A stretch of 40,609 nucleotides of DNA from Bacillota bacterium. GTDB lineage: Bacteria > Bacillota > SHA-98 > Ch115 > JABLXJ01. The stretch spans positions 1-40,609 of the forward strand of contig DUMQ01000008.1 of the NCBI GenBank assembly GCA_012839815.1, read 5' to 3'. Positions within the stretch are counted from its first letter, which is position 1. Every line of letters begins with the position of its first letter. Below are positions 1,865-33,067 of the stretch, in pieces. The notes beneath the pieces were generated by a model. The model was not told the origin of the DNA. It searched no databases and saw only the letters and a program-made list of their open reading frames with translations. A program made the translations under genes and the position numbers.

Positions 1865-4065
1865 AGTTAAGGCCGGTCTTGAAGCTGAAATACCAGCTCG
1901 TCCTGGTTATGACCATTCTTGTCCTGACCCCAATGTTATCGTCCGCCCTGGTCGTAAGCAATCTCGTTAGGAACCAAAACGAAAATAACGCCCGCCAGCG
2001 GATATCGGACGTCGCAAATAAGCTGGCTTACAGTCTAACAACCCTCGAAACTGAATATCTTACAAAGGTCAAAGCCTTCGCTACTACGGAAGAAGTTGTC
2101 TACTCCACTTACGTACTGTTTCAATACGGGGATGTCTTCTCCGACCGAACAAAGTTGAATATAGTCCAGCCCCTCAGGAACTCCCTGCTTTTTTATAAGG
2201 CGAGCCTCGAGGCGGACACCATCGATCTCATAGACGCAAAAGGGCGAATGCTTGCCTCCGTCGGGCCCGGGGATGACATCGAAACCCTGAAGGATCTGGA
2301 GGAGAAGTCAGGCAAGGATATTTTCAGGATCCCGTCAGGGCTCCCGCTAAAGGCGCCGTTTACCATGCCTCGCGAGGCCGGGGTTCGCTTCCAGACTCAG
2401 GGCACCAATCTCCTGCTCATTGCTGAAGCGCCAATTACGCATAAAGCTCGAACTGTTGGAGCTGTCATCTTTCGTAAGAGCTTTGACGGCAACTTCGCAA
2501 CCGAAATGGCAAGGACCACGGGAACCGACCTTGCATTTTTCACGGCGGGTAAGTATGTGATGGGAACTTTGCCTCCTTTCACGATCCCGGCGGGGATCCT
2601 CGCTGACGCGCGGAATAAGTCAGGACTCATCACAACTCAGCTTCGTATCGACAATAACCCCTACAACCTCGCCGTCTATCCCTTGCAACGCGACCGGCCA
2701 CGGAGCCCCATGATAGTAGTGGGGATCTCAAACGTTGATACTATCCAAAACACGCGCCAGACCGTCCGGGCAATCTTTCTAGTGGCATTTCTCGGGATAA
2801 TCATAAGCACCATATTCACATATATTTGGGCCGGAAACGTGACTGAGCCCATAAATATGCTCGTGAAGAGCACAAAGAAAGTGGCGGCTGGCAAGCTCGA
2901 CGAACAAATCGAGACCGGCCGGCGGGATGAGCTGGGCGAATTGGCGACGCAGTTTAACATGATGACGCGCTCCCTGAAGCAAAATACGGATGAACTCTCG
3001 TATCTTAAGGAATTGAATCAAAACATTGTCGAAAGTATAGCCGTGGGGCTCCTGGTCATCGATAGCAGCGCGAGGGTGCTCGCCACCAATGCCGCCCTCG
3101 AACGCCGCTTTAACCTCAGGAAGGACTCCCTGATCGGTAAGGATGTCTCATCGCTGTTCGGGCCGGATGAGGACGCGAGATTTAAAGATATCCTGCTGGA
3201 AATCGCCCGGGCACCCGGGCACAGGGAGATCAATGACGTATCCAGAAAGATCGGCGATGAGGTTCAAATATATAACATCGAAGCCTCCCCGTTGCGCGAC
3301 AGGTTTGGCAAAATATCGGGGAAGATAATCCTTATCGATGACGTTACCGAACGGGCCCAACTGGTCGAGCAGCTCATACGATCGGAGAAGCTAGCCTCGG
3401 TCGGCAAGCTTGCGGCTGGCCTCGCACATGAGATCAATAACCCGCTGGGCACGATAATAAACTACGTCCAAACGCTCCTCCTGGACGAGGACGATGCGGA
3501 AGCGCGTGAGTATCTTAGGAGCGTTGAAACTGAAACGAGACGCATATCCCAGATTGTGAGAGATCTGCTGAATTTTGCAAGGCAGTCGCCGCCGCACTAT
3601 GACGCCGTCGATATTCACAATGTGCTCGATGAGTCGCTGAGGCTCGTCGAATATCAACATCTGCCGGAGACGATTACCATCATTCGCAAGTATTGCGATT
3701 CACCCCTTACCGCACTGGGCGACGCGAATCAATTGAAACAGGCGTTCCTCAACCTTGCCATCAATGCATTTCAAGCGATGCAAAACGGGGGGACTCTCGT
3801 CGTCACAACAAGCCTGAGTGAAGACGACGAGGATCATCGCAAGGTTTGCCACATTGCGTTTAGTGATACCGGCACGGGCATCGCCGACGAGCATCTCAGG
3901 TATATTTTCGACCCGTTTTTCACTACAAAAGAGGTTGGCCAGGGGACAGGCCTCGGCCTCTTTGTAACCTTCGGCATCGTCCAGGCGCATGGCGGCACCA
4001 TAAACGTGAATACACGCGTCGGTCACGGGACAACCTTTACTATAACCTTACCGGTAATCCAGTAA
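1846..4065 (+). CDS. Membrane sensor histidine kinase (HAMP-PAS-HisKA-HATPase)
   Basis: Partner kinase of the preceding regulator. Layout: transmembrane helix about 18-37; extracytoplasmic sensor region of about 270 residues; second helix about 308-330; HAMP about 330-382; PAS about 390-500; HisKA with phospho-acceptor H528 in the motif GLAHEINNPLG; and a HATPase with N box near 628-645, DTGTG near 673 and GQGTGLGLF near 700. The architecture is like AtoS/ZraS-type kinases that work with sigma-54 activators. The ATG at 1846 overlaps the regulator gene; AGGAGAGG lies about 12 bases upstream. The ligand is unknown. Because the next genes encode a sugar importer, a sugar or a related metabolite is likely, but this is inference. 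The external domain lacks any motif that would name the ligand. Confidence 0.92.
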   Translation: MPWPVLKLRPVLKLKYQLVLVMTILVLTPMLSSALVVSNLVRNQNENNARQRISDVANKLAYSLTTLETEYLTKVKAFATTEEVVYSTYVLFQYGDVFSDRTKLNIVQPLRNSLLFYKASLEADTIDLIDAKGRMLASVGPGDDIETLKDLEEKSGKDIFRIPSGLPLKAPFTMPREAGVRFQTQGTNLLLIAEAPITHKARTVGAVIFRKSFDGNFATEMARTTGTDLAFFTAGKYVMGTLPPFTIPAGILADARNKSGLITTQLRIDNNPYNLAVYPLQRDRPRSPMIVVGISNVDTIQNTRQTVRAIFLVAFLGIIISTIFTYIWAGNVTEPINMLVKSTKKVAAGKLDEQIETGRRDELGELATQFNMMTRSLKQNTDELSYLKELNQNIVESIAVGLLVIDSSARVLATNAALERRFNLRKDSLIGKDVSSLFGPDEDARFKDILLEIARAPGHREINDVSRKIGDEVQIYNIEASPLRDRFGKISGKIILIDDVTERAQLVEQLIRSEKLASVGKLAAGLAHEINNPLGTIINYVQTLLLDEDDAEAREYLRSVETETRRISQIVRDLLNFARQSPPHYDAVDIHNVLDESLRLVEYQHLPETITIIRKYCDSPLTALGDANQLKQAFLNLAINAFQAMQNGGTLVVTTSLSEDDEDHRKVCHIAFSDTGTGIADEHLRYIFDPFFTTKEVGQGTGLGLFVTFGIVQAHGGTINVNTRVGHGTTFTITLPVIQ

Positions 4066-27234: not shown

Positions 27235-27750
27235 TCACAATTCTACTCCCCCCAGAAACCGGTTCGTTTGCCACTCCCAGGTATTGTTGCGCCTGACCTT
27301 GCGCGCCCCCGCCTTGCGCAAAAGGGCGGCCATGGCTGTTATGATGTGTCCGATTATACCCTTAGGATCGCTCACCACTATGTGGTGGGCCACCAGGTCA
27401 AAGTAGATGGGTTGGACCTTGAGTGCTTCGGTCTCGGTCAGGATATAGGGTGACAACTCGCAGAGAATATCTTCCTCATCATAGAGGCGCTGGGCTAGGT
27501 CCTCATGTTTCAGCTCGATCCCTTCGATGAATTCCGTCAGGCGTTCCCGACGCCGCGGCGCCTCCTGCAGGATGATCAAAAGGTCGAGATCGGAATTCTT
27601 ACGATTTTCCCCGCGCGCATACGAGCCGAATATTGCGAGGCCGGAAAGATTTTTCCCATAGTAATGCAGGATCTCACTCAGTATCGAATCAATATACTGG
27701 CGATGCATCGGCGAGAAAGTCCGGAGTTGTCTCACAACCTCCAGAGCCAT
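27235..27750 (-). CDS. Minimal nucleotidyltransferase (MNT) family protein
   Basis: Polymerase-beta-fold nucleotidyltransferase of 171 residues. The active-site pattern is intact: FGSYARGENRKNSDLDLLI, i.e. GS followed by DxD. In MNT/HEPN toxin-antitoxin pairs this protein is the antitoxin and modifies the HEPN nuclease with nucleotides. Here the partner survives only as a fragment (27087-27224). GAGGTGG five bases before ATG 27750 gives the preferred start; the frame is open to GTG 27822. The C-terminus ends in an Trp-containing GGVEL tail common in this family. With its partner broken, the gene may be decaying or have another role. Confidence 0.78.
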   Translation of the reverse strand: MALEVVRQLRTFSPMHRQYIDSILSEILHYYGKNLSGLAIFGSYARGENRKNSDLDLLIILQEAPRRRERLTEFIEGIELKHEDLAQRLYDEEDILCELSPYILTETEALKVQPIYFDLVAHHIVVSDPKGIIGHIITAMAALLRKAGARKVRRNNTWEWQTNRFLGGVEL

Positions 27751-27859
27751 TTCAACCACCTCTTGCAACTGCGCGGGGTCCCGGACTTGACGTGCAGGGT
27801 CTGTGACCCCTTCATGGCCCACCCGATATGGGCTATACAGTTAATGCCAGCCCGGCATT

Positions 27860-28327
27860 TTATCCGCCGTGCAGATATCTTTTCAAGATCTGGGCCTTCT
27901 CCGGCCTGCCTAACTTCAGATATGCATGGTACTCATAATCCAAGGACAGGACCGGGATTTGCATCCCGTCAATCTCGATAATACTCCTGTGTAAGTCCAG
28001 ATTCACGGGCTCCCATGTCCCATCATCAAGTCGTTTCTGAATATCACCCATGATCTCGACCCTTATCCCATCTATCATTAATACCCCGAAATCCGAGCGA
28101 ATCCTCTCCGCAGAGGAGAAGGCCACCTTCCTCGTCACAAACTCGGGAAAACGCCTTTCAATTTCATATGCTCCGGCCCTATCGGTTTGGATATCTATAT
28201 CGTTGGGCTTAACGGGTATCCCCTGCAGAGCAAAACTGAGGCTACCCGTAAGTACCCATTTGACCTTATTGTCGCTCAGTCGAGTGCATATCTCACGGAG
28301 GACCTTGAGGTATATCGGGTCAACCAT
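27860..28327 (-). CDS. Nucleotidyltransferase-fold protein
   Basis: Protein of 155 residues with an abbreviated nucleotidyltransferase core: WVLTGSLSFALQGIPVKPNDIDI, giving GS and the DxD pair, then a beta-rich part with VEIMGDIQKRL. Related proteins include AbiEii-like nucleotidyltransferases and stand-alone proteins of unknown function found near toxin-antitoxin genes. GGTGAG lies eight bases before ATG 28327. It is upstream of and co-oriented with the MNT gene (110 bases to its favoured start). No HEPN or AbiEi-type partner is adjacent, so I do not assign a toxin role. Confidence 0.7.
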   Translation of the reverse strand: MVDPIYLKVLREICTRLSDNKVKWVLTGSLSFALQGIPVKPNDIDIQTDRAGAYEIERRFPEFVTRKVAFSSAERIRSDFGVLMIDGIRVEIMGDIQKRLDDGTWEPVNLDLHRSIIEIDGMQIPVLSLDYEYHAYLKLGRPEKAQILKRYLHGG

Positions 28328-28635: not shown

Positions 28636-29745
28636 CTATGCCATGGGACCTACGAGCGACAGGATAACGCCGCCTGCGACGATGGAACCTATCTGGCCTG
28701 CGACATTGGCCCCAACCGATTGCATGAGGATAAAATTCTGGGGGTCCTCTCTTTGTGCGAGCTTATGGATAACCCTGGCCGACATCGGAAACGCGGATAT
28801 GCCAGCGGCGCCGACCATGGGGTTTATTTTATGCTTCAAAAAGATGTTCAACAGCTTAGCAAATAGCACGCCTCCTGCCGTATCGAGCACAAAGGCAATC
28901 AACCCCATGCCCAGTATCATCAAGGTTGCAGGTGTGAGAAACCTGTCTGCTGTCATTGTCGAACCGATTGTAATACCCAGGACCAAGGTTACGAGGTCTG
29001 CAAGATCATTTTGGGCGGCCCTCGATAGCTTATCCAGCACTCCACACTCCCGGATCAGGTTGCCAAACATAAGGGAGCCGACGAGAGCCACGCTCATAGG
29101 GGCCAGTATACCTGCAACCACTGTCACCATAATCGGAAACAGTATTCTCGCGCGCCTCGACACCCTAACCAGATTCAGGTCCATACGCATCCTGCGCTCT
29201 TCGGGAGTGGTAAGTGCTGTTATAACCGGAGGCTGTATCACCGGGACGAGAGCCATGTAAGAATATGCTGCAACGGATATGGGGCCCAGGAGCTGAGGCG
29301 CAAACAGGTTCGCAACATATATAGATGTTGGTCCATCTGCCGCGCCTATTATTCCTATAGACGCCGCCTCCTTTAGGCTGAATCCTAGCGAGGCTCCCAG
29401 TATCGTCGTCAAGAATATGCCGAGCTGGGCTGCGGCCCCGAAGAAAATCATCGCCGGCTGCTGCAGCAGCGGGCCGAAATCGATCATCGCGCCGACGGCT
29501 ATGAATATCAAAACAGGGAATAGTTCGGTCTTGATCCCGGCGTTATAAAGCAATGTCAGAAAGCCGCCGTTACCAATGGCCGATGACATGGGGATATTGG
29601 CCAAAATTGCACCGAACCCTATCGGCAACAGCAGCATGGGTTCATAATCCTTTTTTATGGCGAGGTATATAAGCACCCCACCAACTACAAACATAATGAG
29701 GTTGCCGGCTGATAGATTACCCAGCGCCTGAAACCATCCTTGCAC
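28636..29745 (-). CDS. Sodium-translocating decarboxylase beta subunit (OadB/MmdB/GcdB type)
   Basis: Integral membrane subunit that couples decarboxylation of a carboxybiotin group to export of Na+. 369 residues with about ten hydrophobic spans. Family marks: KKDYEPMLLLPIGFGAILANIP, FPVLIFIAVGAMIDFGPLL (with the conserved Asp), GAADGPTSIYVANLFAP, and NPMVGAAGISAFPMSARV near the end. It starts at GTG 29745 behind GGGGGT and an excellent promoter (29795-29823). A small gamma-like gene follows. No alpha (carboxyltransferase) or biotin-carrier gene is in the window, so the decarboxylated acid cannot be told; oxaloacetate, methylmalonyl-CoA and glutaconyl-CoA enzymes share this subunit. Confidence 0.93.
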   Translation of the reverse strand: MQGWFQALGNLSAGNLIMFVVGGVLIYLAIKKDYEPMLLLPIGFGAILANIPMSSAIGNGGFLTLLYNAGIKTELFPVLIFIAVGAMIDFGPLLQQPAMIFFGAAAQLGIFLTTILGASLGFSLKEAASIGIIGAADGPTSIYVANLFAPQLLGPISVAAYSYMALVPVIQPPVITALTTPEERRMRMDLNLVRVSRRARILFPIMVTVVAGILAPMSVALVGSLMFGNLIRECGVLDKLSRAAQNDLADLVTLVLGITIGSTMTADRFLTPATLMILGMGLIAFVLDTAGGVLFAKLLNIFLKHKINPMVGAAGISAFPMSARVIHKLAQREDPQNFILMQSVGANVAGQIGSIVAGGVILSLVGPMA

Positions 29746-29794: not shown

Positions 29795-29823
29795 AGTATA
29801 TATTCGGGTCTCAGGGGTGTCAA
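29795..29823 (-). promoter_or_regulatory. Sigma-A promoter for the decarboxylase beta/gamma genes
   Basis: On the minus strand: TTGACA (29823-29818), a 17-base spacer and TATACT (29800-29795). Transcription would start near 29788, about 45 bases before the GTG of the beta-subunit gene. Confidence 0.75.
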
Positions 29824-29861: not shown

Positions 29862-31268
29862 TCAAGACGGGCGGCTTGCCTGGATATTAAGGTAGCTGGA
29901 TGGTGTGATGAAGCTCCAGCCGCACTCTAAGAGCCTGAGAAGATGCTTCCATGAAATACGCCCTGTTGCAAGGTTCTTGATGAGATGGCCCATGCTCTTG
30001 AGGATATACTCGGGCCTCCGGTAGGCGGAAATGTAAAGCCGGGCCAGCTCCCTGTAAAAATCATCGAGTTTCAGCCGCGTAGGTAAGACAGCGTGCATGA
30101 AATCGTAAAGTTCAAGATTGGCTGTGGTTAGCTTCTCCTTCATCCTGGCGTAGAGCTCCGTTCCTGGCAGCGGGGTCAACACCGAAAATGATGGGGTATA
30201 GATTCTCTTGTCTCTTATGTACTGCCGCAGCCTGGCGAAATCATTGCGATCATATTGGGGATCGACGATGAAGGACGCCACCACGCCGATGTTATGTTTA
30301 TTCAAAATATCCAGGGCCTTTTCGTTATTGGCGACACTATTCCGCTTCTCTACGGATTGAAGTTCGTCCTCGCTTGCCTTTTCGAATCCGATGAAAACCT
30401 TAAATAACCCGGCCTCTTTCCAGAGGGGAATAAGATCCGGGTGTTTCACGATGGTGTCGCTTCGGGCCTGGAATGTAATTTTCTTCTTTATCCGGGCGTT
30501 CCTCAAGCCCATGGCTACCTCCTCAGCCCGCTCAACATTCATCAGGAAGTTGTCATCGGTTATAAGCACATACTCCTCGCCGACCTCCGAAAGCTCTTCC
30601 ACGACGCGCGCCGCGCTCTTGGTGCGGCACCTCCCCTTGTAAAACCTCCAAACGCTGCAAAAGTTGCACCTGTAGGGGCATCCCCGCGCCGTCTCCAGGG
30701 CTGCCGTCGGCTTTTGGAAACCGAGGAAATAGGCGTTTCTATAGCTATGTGTGAGGTCACGGGCTGGCTTTGGCAGCTTGTCCATATCAAGAATACCGTC
30801 CCGGTCGCCGGTGAACACCTGACACCCATCTTTGTTTATCACGAGACCCCTAACCCCTGCGATATCCCCCCCTTGCTCGAGGCAGCGCAGGGCCTCGGCC
30901 GTCGTGGCTTCACCCTCACCCACTACGACGAAATCAATAGAGGGGTCAAGGAAATCAGAAGGGTTCAGGGAGGCATGATGCCCCCCCACAAAAATGTTGA
31001 CTCCTTTGCGGGTATCCTTCACGGCGCGCGCTATAGATATGGTCTGGTAGACATCAATAGTAAATGAACAGCTTATCCCGCAGGCGTCCGGTGAAAACTC
31101 CTTAACCACCGGTATGAGATTCCCCTTATCGAAAAGATCCAGGATCCTTACCTCGTGCTCGGGCTCGAGCGCCCCCGCGACCATCTCGAGCCCCAGGGGC
31201 TCGATAACGGACATGCTCTTGAACCCGACCCCCGCTCCCTGCCTCGGTTGAATGAGCAGAACCTTCAT
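29862..31268 (-). CDS. B12-binding-domain radical SAM protein
   Basis: 468-residue enzyme with an N-terminal cobalamin-binding Rossmann domain (about 1-140; MKVLLIQPRQG, VGGHHASLNP, VVVGEGE) followed by a radical SAM domain with the cluster motif CPYRCNFC, then a helical C-terminal region. Proteins of this layout carry out methylations and carbon-carbon bond chemistry on unreactive carbons in lipids, tetrapyrroles and natural products. The cobalamin domain lacks the DxHxxG histidine that would make it base-off/His-on, as is usual in this class. A strong GGAGGTGATC lies upstream of ATG. It follows the second radical SAM gene by 25 bases in the same direction. The substrate is not evident. Confidence 0.9.
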   Translation of the reverse strand: MKVLLIQPRQGAGVGFKSMSVIEPLGLEMVAGALEPEHEVRILDLFDKGNLIPVVKEFSPDACGISCSFTIDVYQTISIARAVKDTRKGVNIFVGGHHASLNPSDFLDPSIDFVVVGEGEATTAEALRCLEQGGDIAGVRGLVINKDGCQVFTGDRDGILDMDKLPKPARDLTHSYRNAYFLGFQKPTAALETARGCPYRCNFCSVWRFYKGRCRTKSAARVVEELSEVGEEYVLITDDNFLMNVERAEEVAMGLRNARIKKKITFQARSDTIVKHPDLIPLWKEAGLFKVFIGFEKASEDELQSVEKRNSVANNEKALDILNKHNIGVVASFIVDPQYDRNDFARLRQYIRDKRIYTPSFSVLTPLPGTELYARMKEKLTTANLELYDFMHAVLPTRLKLDDFYRELARLYISAYRRPEYILKSMGHLIKNLATGRISWKHLLRLLECGWSFITPSSYLNIQASRPS

Positions 31269-31293
31269 AACCTACCGATCACCTCCCAAATTC

Positions 31294-32691
31294 TTAGCGT
31301 TGGACCGCGACCTCTTCCCGTTCCTGCAAGCCTCGCCGCCTCGCTGCCCTCTGCTCCCAGATGGGGTCAGAAACCTCCTTCCAGCGCTCGGCCCGCTCAT
31401 CAAGGGCGTTCGCCACATCGTCATCAAACACCCCATCCGCACCCGGGTGAGTGGGATGAGCACCCGTCTCTTTAACAATCTCCCGCAAGACCCTGGGCTC
31501 ATCTATTAAAGGACATGGCCGGAGCAGGTTATCGCTCACGGGCTGGTGCCGCTGATAAGACCTGAACAACGGGGATAGGAGGATGTCCCTCAAACTCTTG
31601 TCTTTTATGTTGTCCACAGCAAAATGCACAAATGCGCATGGCTCAACATCGCCTTTTGCTGTTATGTGGAAATAGCGCCTGCCGCCTGCTATGCACCCTC
31701 CGGTCAACTCGCCGTCGTTCCAGAAATCTGCAACCTGGATGGGCTTGGTGCGCCGTATATATGGCACGCGTTCAGCAAGGTATGCTCGCTGTTCTGGTGT
31801 GACCATCAATCTGAGGTCAGGATCCCGGCCGATAGGTATGTAATGAAATGACCACCCGTAGAGGGCTCCCTTTTGGATCATGAGATCTATAAATTCGTCG
31901 CTAAAGGCCTCGTAGGCATTCTCGCTCGTGATCGTTATGCTAAAGCCAAATATGGCGCCATGACGCTTCAAGTTATCCATGGCGCTCATGATTCGATCAA
32001 AAGTCCCCGGTCCACGGCGGGCGTCGGTCCGCTCGCGATTCCCCTCAATGCTGATTGCAGGAGAAATATTGCCGAGTTCAACCATTCTAGCGGCCATCTC
32101 ATCATCGATCAACGTGCCGTTAGTATAAAGCATAAACGCGACATCTCTGTGTTTTTCAGCGATCTCGAACAGGTGAGGGTAAAGCATGGGCTCGCCACCT
32201 GACATGACGATATAATAAATGCCCATCTCTTTAGCCTCTGAGATGATCCGGTCCAGGAGATCGAAGCTCATGGTATCATGCTTCGAATACTCCCCCGCCC
32301 AGCATCCCTTGCATTTCAGGTTGCACGCGCTTGTCGGGTCGATGAGAATGGTCCATGGCACCTGTACGCCCAGCTCGCTGGCTAATTGTCTTTGCCTTGG
32401 AATCCCGAAAAGAATCGCGTTGACAAAGTAGTTCACCAAAAGGCGCCTTATAACATTGGGATTGGTTTGAGCAAAGATTCGCCTTACGTATTCTTTCAAG
32501 GCGGGGTTTAGCTGAATAGCTTGCTTGAGTTCAGCAATCTGGCGCCTGTGGGCCGGGCTTGGAGCGAACTTCCTTCCGAGATCGAACAGCCACATCAGAT
32601 TCCTTTCCGGTGAACGTCCAACGTATTCAACGATATGTTGCAATAGCATCTCGGCGGCGTAGCGTTTGACACTGTTAACATTACCTAGCAC
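31294..32691 (-). CDS. Radical SAM protein with SPASM-like C-terminus
   Basis: 465-residue radical SAM enzyme. A helical N-terminal region of about 100 residues precedes the core: IDPTSACNLKCKGCWAGEYS (CxxxCxxC, binds the 4Fe-4S cluster and SAM), the SAM-contacting YIVMSGGEPML, and SISIEG. The C-terminal part has cysteines in GGCIAGGRRYFHI, VEPCAFVHF and RPCPLID, as expected for an auxiliary cluster. The family is common in clostridia and archaea, mostly uncharacterised. Start: GTG 32691 with GAGGTG six bases upstream; the frame is open to GTG 32724. It is the first gene of a two-gene operon with the B12-type radical SAM protein, suggesting joint action on one product. Confidence 0.88.
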   Translation of the reverse strand: MLGNVNSVKRYAAEMLLQHIVEYVGRSPERNLMWLFDLGRKFAPSPAHRRQIAELKQAIQLNPALKEYVRRIFAQTNPNVIRRLLVNYFVNAILFGIPRQRQLASELGVQVPWTILIDPTSACNLKCKGCWAGEYSKHDTMSFDLLDRIISEAKEMGIYYIVMSGGEPMLYPHLFEIAEKHRDVAFMLYTNGTLIDDEMAARMVELGNISPAISIEGNRERTDARRGPGTFDRIMSAMDNLKRHGAIFGFSITITSENAYEAFSDEFIDLMIQKGALYGWSFHYIPIGRDPDLRLMVTPEQRAYLAERVPYIRRTKPIQVADFWNDGELTGGCIAGGRRYFHITAKGDVEPCAFVHFAVDNIKDKSLRDILLSPLFRSYQRHQPVSDNLLRPCPLIDEPRVLREIVKETGAHPTHPGADGVFDDDVANALDERAERWKEVSDPIWEQRAARRRGLQEREEVAVQR

Positions 32692-33067
32692 AGCTTTCAC
32701 CTCGCTAGAAAGTCTATGCAACACTGATCGTTATATCCATAATCATATCCATATCCACCATATGCATGATATACCGGCCATTGCAAGATATACCATATGG
32801 AAAAGACAAAGAAGATATATCAGATATATCATTAGATGGTGGCAGATATGCCTGATGTAGCTATAGTAATCCCCATTTTCTCCTTACATCATACCAGCAT
32901 CATATTCTACATTATTAATGCCAACTAGATTAATGCCAGCTAGCGTCCACAGCTCATATCAGGACCCTCCTTTTTTATCCGAATTTTGCAAGCCCTGGGG
33001 GTTTGCGATCCTATTACCATTTTACAACTAACCTCGCAGAAAAACAATAAAAGCCGCGGCATTGCCT
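32692..33067. other. AT-rich spacer between galK and the radical SAM operon
   Basis: No gene. The half next to the radical SAM gene is rich in ATATCC/GATATATC words, including the direct repeat GATATATCAGATATATCA near 32813-32830, and presumably holds the promoter of that operon, although no clear hexamer pair is visible. TTAATGCCA(A/G)CTAG occurs twice at about 32917-32943. The half next to galK contains GCCGCGGC followed (minus strand) by TTTTATTGTTTTT; the stem is too short to call a terminator. Confidence 0.4.

Follow-up and report, generated by a model that had tools for sequence, protein, structure and literature searches.

A recurrent pair of radical SAM genes from a Bacillota bacterium: a candidate operon for a modified membrane-spanning lipid

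What would two radical S-adenosylmethionine (SAM) enzymes of different classes make together when their genes lie side by side? The question is raised by contig DUMQ01000008.1 of a Bacillota bacterium (assembly GCA_012839815.1). The 40,609-nucleotide stretch analyzed here (the window) carries, on its minus strand, a gene for a SPASM-like radical SAM protein followed by a gene for a B12-binding radical SAM protein (the B12 gene). An earlier note made from the letters alone had described the two genes as co-directional and 25 bases apart, and the reading frames confirmed its coordinates. The note had also called them an orphan pair acting on one product, for example a membrane lipid. The pair is no orphan, as its recurrence in two phyla shows; among possible substrates a membrane lipid has the strongest support, and the product is one that we infer. 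The SPASM-like protein is compared below with Mss, reportedly described by Sahonero-Canavesi et al. in 2022 as a bacterial membrane-spanning lipid synthase, and its gene is referred to as the Mss-like gene. The reading that we favor, with about even confidence, is that the two genes are an operon whose product is a membrane-spanning lipid in modified form, one encoding a chain-coupling enzyme and the other a C-methylase of the same lipid.

Recurrence of the gene pair in two phyla

Two sets of genomes were searched. The phylum 1 sample contained 398 genomes, including the window's own, and was searched for the B12 gene at an E value of ≤1e-70. The phylum 2 sample contained 297 genomes, was entered via a genome in which a B12 gene had already been found (G403), and was searched at ≤1e-90. 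Close B12 genes are those with at least 45% identity; relatives at ~38 to 41% were excluded from the pairing counts, as were a locus with a split reading frame (L007) and a distant one (L008). The B12 gene was rare: it occurred in 12 phylum 1 genomes, 10 of them at ≥45% identity, and in 23 phylum 2 genomes, 17 of them at that level.

Genomes with a close B12 gene almost always carried the Mss-like family (E ≤ 1e-60) as well. In phylum 1 this was true of 10 of 10, compared with 178 of 398 genomes overall (Fisher p, 3e-4), and in phylum 2 of 15 of 17, compared with 64 of 297 overall (Fisher p, 2e-9); both p values ignore relatedness. An Mss-like gene directly adjoined 7 of the 11 close B12 genes of phylum 1, where one genome (G091) holds two, and 5 of the 17 of phylum 2, where the analysis covered the flanks in 20 of 23 genomes and the pair of G515 was established from gene coordinates plus a located frame. 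Overall, 12 of 28 close B12 genes were paired, all on the same strand as their neighbor. A rough estimate from gene density predicts 0.016 and 0.018 such pairs by chance, about 0.03 in total. The adjacency of the pair exceeds chance. These counts include the window and G403; without the two starting genomes, co-occurrence was 9 of 9 and 14 of 16 and adjacency was 6 of 10 and 5 of 16. The Mss-like gene comes first in nine of the pairs and the B12 gene in three. Two pairs overlap by 4 bases, and the others are 10 to 274 bases apart (at L177 the Mss-like frame extends into the B12 gene, and the gap is at most 274). The gene-neighborhood comparison that the earlier note had proposed therefore found the pairing conserved in related genomes and in both gene orders.

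More distant B12 relatives (~38 to 41% identity) were present in 2 phylum 1 and 6 phylum 2 genomes. Of those whose flanks were retrieved (2 of 2 and 3 of 6, respectively), none had an Mss-like neighbor, and an Mss-like gene was present in 0 of 2 and 2 of 6 of these genomes.

Trees of the two families did not group the paired genes together. Among 42 phylum 1 Mss-like proteins, the seven paired rows require five label changes, and a single clade was rejected (p-AU, 1.9e-78) by an approximately unbiased (AU) test performed after an earlier tree had been viewed. In a quick, long-branched tree of 89 Mss-like rows, the twelve paired rows require eight changes. In the earlier tree, for instance, the paired G252 copy falls among unpaired ones from the same genus, and the paired G091 copy among other copies from G091. 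Paired and unpaired genes were likewise intermixed in the B12 tree, where the five included of the eight ~40% relatives formed a separate, unpaired clade. Adjacency either arose more than once or survived from an old pairing in scattered lineages; both histories argue for a shared function of the two genes.

The two radical SAM proteins

The Mss-like protein contains Pfam Radical_SAM and SPASM domains. Its CxxxCxxC motif occupies residues 134 to 141 (cysteines are numbered by the longest open reading frame [ORF], 476 residues) and is present in each of the 89 distinct homologues. All 89 have six cysteines in common, namely, the three of the motif plus C344, C363, and C404, and as a residue pattern the latter three are compatible with an auxiliary cluster that has one free iron. 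In NCBIfam, the protein fell below the cut-off for every one of the best 25 of the 69 models matched. Three copies at ≥48% identity are present in the window's genome, and two to four were found in 12 of 13 sampled genomes of one family, f15; with few first-pass candidates scored per genome, such counts may be underestimates. Family f15 looks Moorella-like by sequence: the formyltetrahydrofolate synthetase of its member G261 matches PDB 4ioj, which we take to be a Moorella thermoacetica protein, over its full length.

These distributions resemble those published for Mss. Mss and Ger are found together in 54 Bacillota families according to the text of one survey and 56 according to its Table 2 caption, among them Moorellaceae with the iso-diabolic acid producer M. 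thermoacetica (PMC13274423). The criterion used there was a BLASTP E value of ≤1e-30 with >30% identity (PMC13274423), and Mss matches extend to Desulfobacterota and many other phyla (PMC11868695). The Mss-like family is likened to Mss because its spread in Bacillota and the second phylum and its prevalence fit these surveys. The SPASM-like gene is thus probably a member of the Mss family, an assignment based on distribution and residues and not on direct comparison with Mss. The earlier note's remark that no known lipid-synthesis gene adjoins the pair may then be wrong, as the SPASM-like gene itself would be one. The pairing differs from the published account of Mss, whose main text contains neither "B12" nor "methyltransferase," so that no such partner is described there (PMC13274423).

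Mss is predicted to hold SAM in its active site and to have an architecture like that of the tetraether synthase (PMC13274423). In the latter enzyme (Tes or GDGT-MAS; PDB 7tol), a C-terminal cluster lies near both lipid sites and has one iron with a labile ligand, Met439; its authors argue for use of the FeS cluster in Csp3-Csp3 bond formation (PMC9433317), and the other three ligands are presumably cysteines. The Mss-like protein shares with Tes the radical SAM core and a similar length (Tes has 526 residues), and its three C-terminal cysteines fit an auxiliary cluster that leaves one iron without a permanent cysteine ligand. It differs from Tes in that the family lacks the rubredoxin and the N-terminal cluster (no cysteine before residue 134 is conserved across the 89 homologues) and in that the sequence match is confined to the core. 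The lipid-modifying radical SAM core of HpnH, adenosyl-hopene transferase (TIGR03470), was matched at 50 bits against a cut-off of 225.

The B12 protein combines a B12-binding domain (PF02310; 2.6e-19) with a Radical_SAM domain (PF04055; 3.9e-17). Its CxxxCxxC motif (residues 197 to 204) is found in all 37 distinct homologues, and the three cysteines of this motif are the only ones common to them. Its best NCBIfam match, extending through both domains over residues 1 to 411, is HpnR (TIGR04367), at 287.2 bits against a cut-off of 650. A lipid C-methylase role is suggested for the B12 protein because HpnR is, by name, a lipid C-methylase. Judged by its domain and family matches, the B12 protein belongs to the class B cobalamin radical SAM proteins and is close to HpnR yet distinct from it.

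A candidate lipid pathway and its alternatives

In the pathway that we propose, the first enzyme would couple two membrane phospholipids tail to tail, giving a single long chain of the diabolic or iso-diabolic type. A 5′-deoxyadenosyl radical would abstract hydrogen from one chain, the resulting carbon would be held on an auxiliary [4Fe-4S] cluster with three cysteine ligands, and a second radical would close the sp3-sp3 carbon-carbon bond, as proposed for the archaeal tetraether synthase. The second enzyme would use cobalamin to place a methyl group, donated by methylcobalamin, on an unactivated carbon of the spanning chain, either before or after coupling. Methylation of sp3 carbons is known for class B enzymes (PMC9692996). 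The substrate, the methyl transfer, its position, and the order of steps are those that we infer, and our confidence that the B12 enzyme methylates the same lipid is somewhat lower than our confidence in the Mss assignment. A more general proposal is offered tentatively, as a possibility that we rather doubt: the B12 enzyme may be a chain C-methylase of bacterial spanning lipids, a portable Mss partner across phyla of the type that would create the extra methyl branches, such as 5-methyl or 6-methyl, of the branched glycerol dialkyl glycerol tetraethers (brGDGTs) used as palaeothermometers.

Several observations weigh against the lipid pathway, including some given below with the alternatives that they favor. 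Sixteen of the 28 close B12 genes were not seen beside an Mss-like gene; a contig end truncates two of these (in G254 and G497). The assignment to Mss is not a sequence test. Predicted models of the Mss-like and B12 proteins had pLDDT (predicted local distance difference test) scores of 44.5 and 49, respectively, too poor for use in fold comparison. The labile ligand is not essential in the tetraether synthase, because the M439A variant stayed active (PMC9433317). Finally, the spanning lipids of seven Bacillota strains include no 5- or 6-methyl chain in the published table (PMC13274423, Table 1).

The SPASM-like family might instead not be Mss and might act on another substrate, such as a quinone-type lipid, a cofactor, or a peptide, on which the B12 enzyme would act too. 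We regard this as fairly unlikely, yet several findings speak for it. The closest solved relatives are of the SkfB and PqqE types, which outrank the tetraether synthase in searches of solved structures; 7tol was matched over the core only (E, 2e-8) and was missing at E ≤ 0.01 from a single-sequence structure-database search. Because 35% homologues occur on two enterobacterial plasmids, one from Escherichia and the other from Klebsiella, the wider SPASM-like family need not be concerned with spanning lipids. Near 10 of 14 loci of other Mss-like copies lies a family of ~230- to 265-residue proteins, of which three of the four members scanned match helix-turn-helix regulator models (two over the cut-off), and an ABC1/UbiB-type kinase family lies near 5 of the 14 (both members scanned match). 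Two pairs, L178 and L183, share a 46-residue ORF (82% over 44 residues) downstream, 3′ of the B12 gene and on the opposite strand; another short-ORF match between these loci is 69% over 32 residues. Against a non-Mss substrate, most pairs have no recurring short ORF near them. Apart from L178 and L183, shared short ORFs within 1 kb belong to close relatives (the window and L022; L023 and L024), and the remaining matches are weak and mostly of low complexity. The earlier note's statement that no peptide precursor lies beside the pair was borne out to this extent, and maturation of a ribosomally synthesized and post-translationally modified peptide was set aside. A full SPASM set comprises seven cysteines, from which the three auxiliary cysteines of this family differ, and the prevalence and phyla of the family fit the Mss surveys.

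Other alternatives keep the first gene as Mss or separate the two genes altogether. If the B12 enzyme did not methylate, it might carry out a ring closure, cross-link, or rearrangement of the spanning chain in the manner of BchE, which uses cobalamin in forming a ring. BchE ranks second among the NCBIfam matches of the B12 protein (162 bits); cobalamin radical SAM enzymes are not all methylases, BchE and OxsB being examples (PMC13331322), and bacterial tetraethers contain rings (PMC10087280). We nevertheless consider a nonmethylating enzyme unlikely: the methylase HpnR scores far higher, and a Kozakia gene annotated hpnR shows 34.7% identity to the B12 protein over 88% of the latter. Identity with the hopanoid C-3 methylase HpnR itself was rejected and is improbable in the extreme. 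HpnR is the top family match by name, and, of the genomes with the B12 gene, 4 in the set of 12 and 6 in the set of 17 gave weak, partial cyclase-like matches (best E, 1.8e-15). However, the score is under half of the cut-off, the genetic partner is a different one, and hopene cyclase was not found over the TIGR01507 cut-off in any of the 12 and 17 gene-bearing genomes, in a search for which none of 14 controls was positive. It is also very improbable that the two enzymes have unrelated substrates and are neighbors through common regulation or shared transfer. The patchy spread of the B12 gene (3 of 18 f15 genomes) suggests mobility, but the partner is carried by various Mss-like lineages in both gene orders, and the strong co-occurrence of the two genes extends to genomes in which they do not adjoin (15 of 17).

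Local features and implications of the pair

Features of the pair and its immediate surroundings are listed below.

Positions of the paired genes and nearby features in the window
Feature	Position	Strand	Remarks
Mss-like radical SAM/SPASM-like gene	31294..32691	-	Upstream gene; 465 aa from GTG 32691; longest ORF reaches 32724 (476 aa); stop codon ends at 31294
B12-binding and radical SAM gene	29862..31268	-	Downstream gene; 468 aa, HpnR-like class B type; ATG begins at 31268
Ribosome-binding site GGAGGTGATC of B12 gene	31277..31286	-	Read in the sequence, within gap 31269-31293
Ribosome-binding site GAGGTG of Mss-like gene	32698..32703	-	Read in the sequence; 6 bases 5′ of GTG 32691
Promoter-like TTGACA-17-TATACT	29795..29823	-	3′ of the pair and 5′ of the decarboxylase beta-subunit gene; consensus match only
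Sodium-pump decarboxylase beta-subunit gene	28636-29745		Next gene after the pair

The earlier note had claimed a ribosome-binding site for the second gene, and each gene in fact lies behind one. The GTG start of the Mss-like gene is favored over the longer ORF because its ribosome-binding site precedes it by 6 bases; in the same-genus copy L022, the ORF starts 3 residues before this position. The two genes presumably form an operon. The promoter-like sequence that follows them, one of 9 such sites found against a mean of 5.4 in shuffled sequences, suggests a separate promoter for the decarboxylase beta-subunit gene, with 29862 as the end of the pair.

Beyond close relatives, no other gene recurred directly beside the pairs, and a few genes some kilobases away were common to two or three loci. 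The decarboxylase beta subunit, galK/galT, and nucleotidyltransferases were discarded as parts of the module, having no cross-genus match in the stretches around other pairs; galK adjoins the pair in a same-genus genome as well. Two adjacent genes of nucleotidyltransferase fold (NTP_transf_2; PF10706, Aminoglyc_resit) occupy window positions 27235-28327.

B12-family genes without an Mss neighbor have other surroundings. One adjoins an aldehyde:ferredoxin oxidoreductase gene (L025, 5494-8867). In seven phylum 2 genomes (L167-L173), the B12 gene is convergent with the gene for a large protein family (755 to 845 residues; 491 where cut) that is not Mss, and clpX and trigger-factor genes lie near it at L168, L170, and L172 (domains read from the L006 copies). 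Among the other Mss-like copies, example loci are L034 (9412-13917; contig C71 of the window's own genome), L096, L098, and L103. The 35% homologue on an Escherichia plasmid is carried at 2254-3633 of the conjugative Escherichia albertii plasmid NZ_CP117576.1 (L105); relatives on plasmids were distant ones only, and none was found in viral contigs. The window's own genome also contains a three-gene cassette (L069, 6538-9696; contig C56) of DUF2229 plus HGD-D, DUF2229-like, and BadF ATPase proteins. By its domains, this cassette is a split PlsA/Ger-like set without the full-length enzyme. No long PlsA/Ger-type reading frame was present among the two DUF2229 hits in this genome, and other ether-lipid routes were not searched.

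The extra methyl branches of brGDGTs are read as a record of past temperature. Acidobacteria are known to have iso-diabolic acid and brGDGTs with additional methyl groups at C5 or C6 (PMC13274423), and cultured Solibacter shifts its brGDGT methyl branches with growth temperature (PMC10087280). The pathway in the culture study is drawn "excluding C5/C6 methylations" (PMC10087280). No enzyme for the extra methyl step was named in the literature searched, whose coverage leaves out most subscription journals. If the proposed function is correct, this two-gene module would be a concrete candidate for the coupling and methylation of spanning lipids, and it would predict which bacteria should produce methylated spanning lipids.

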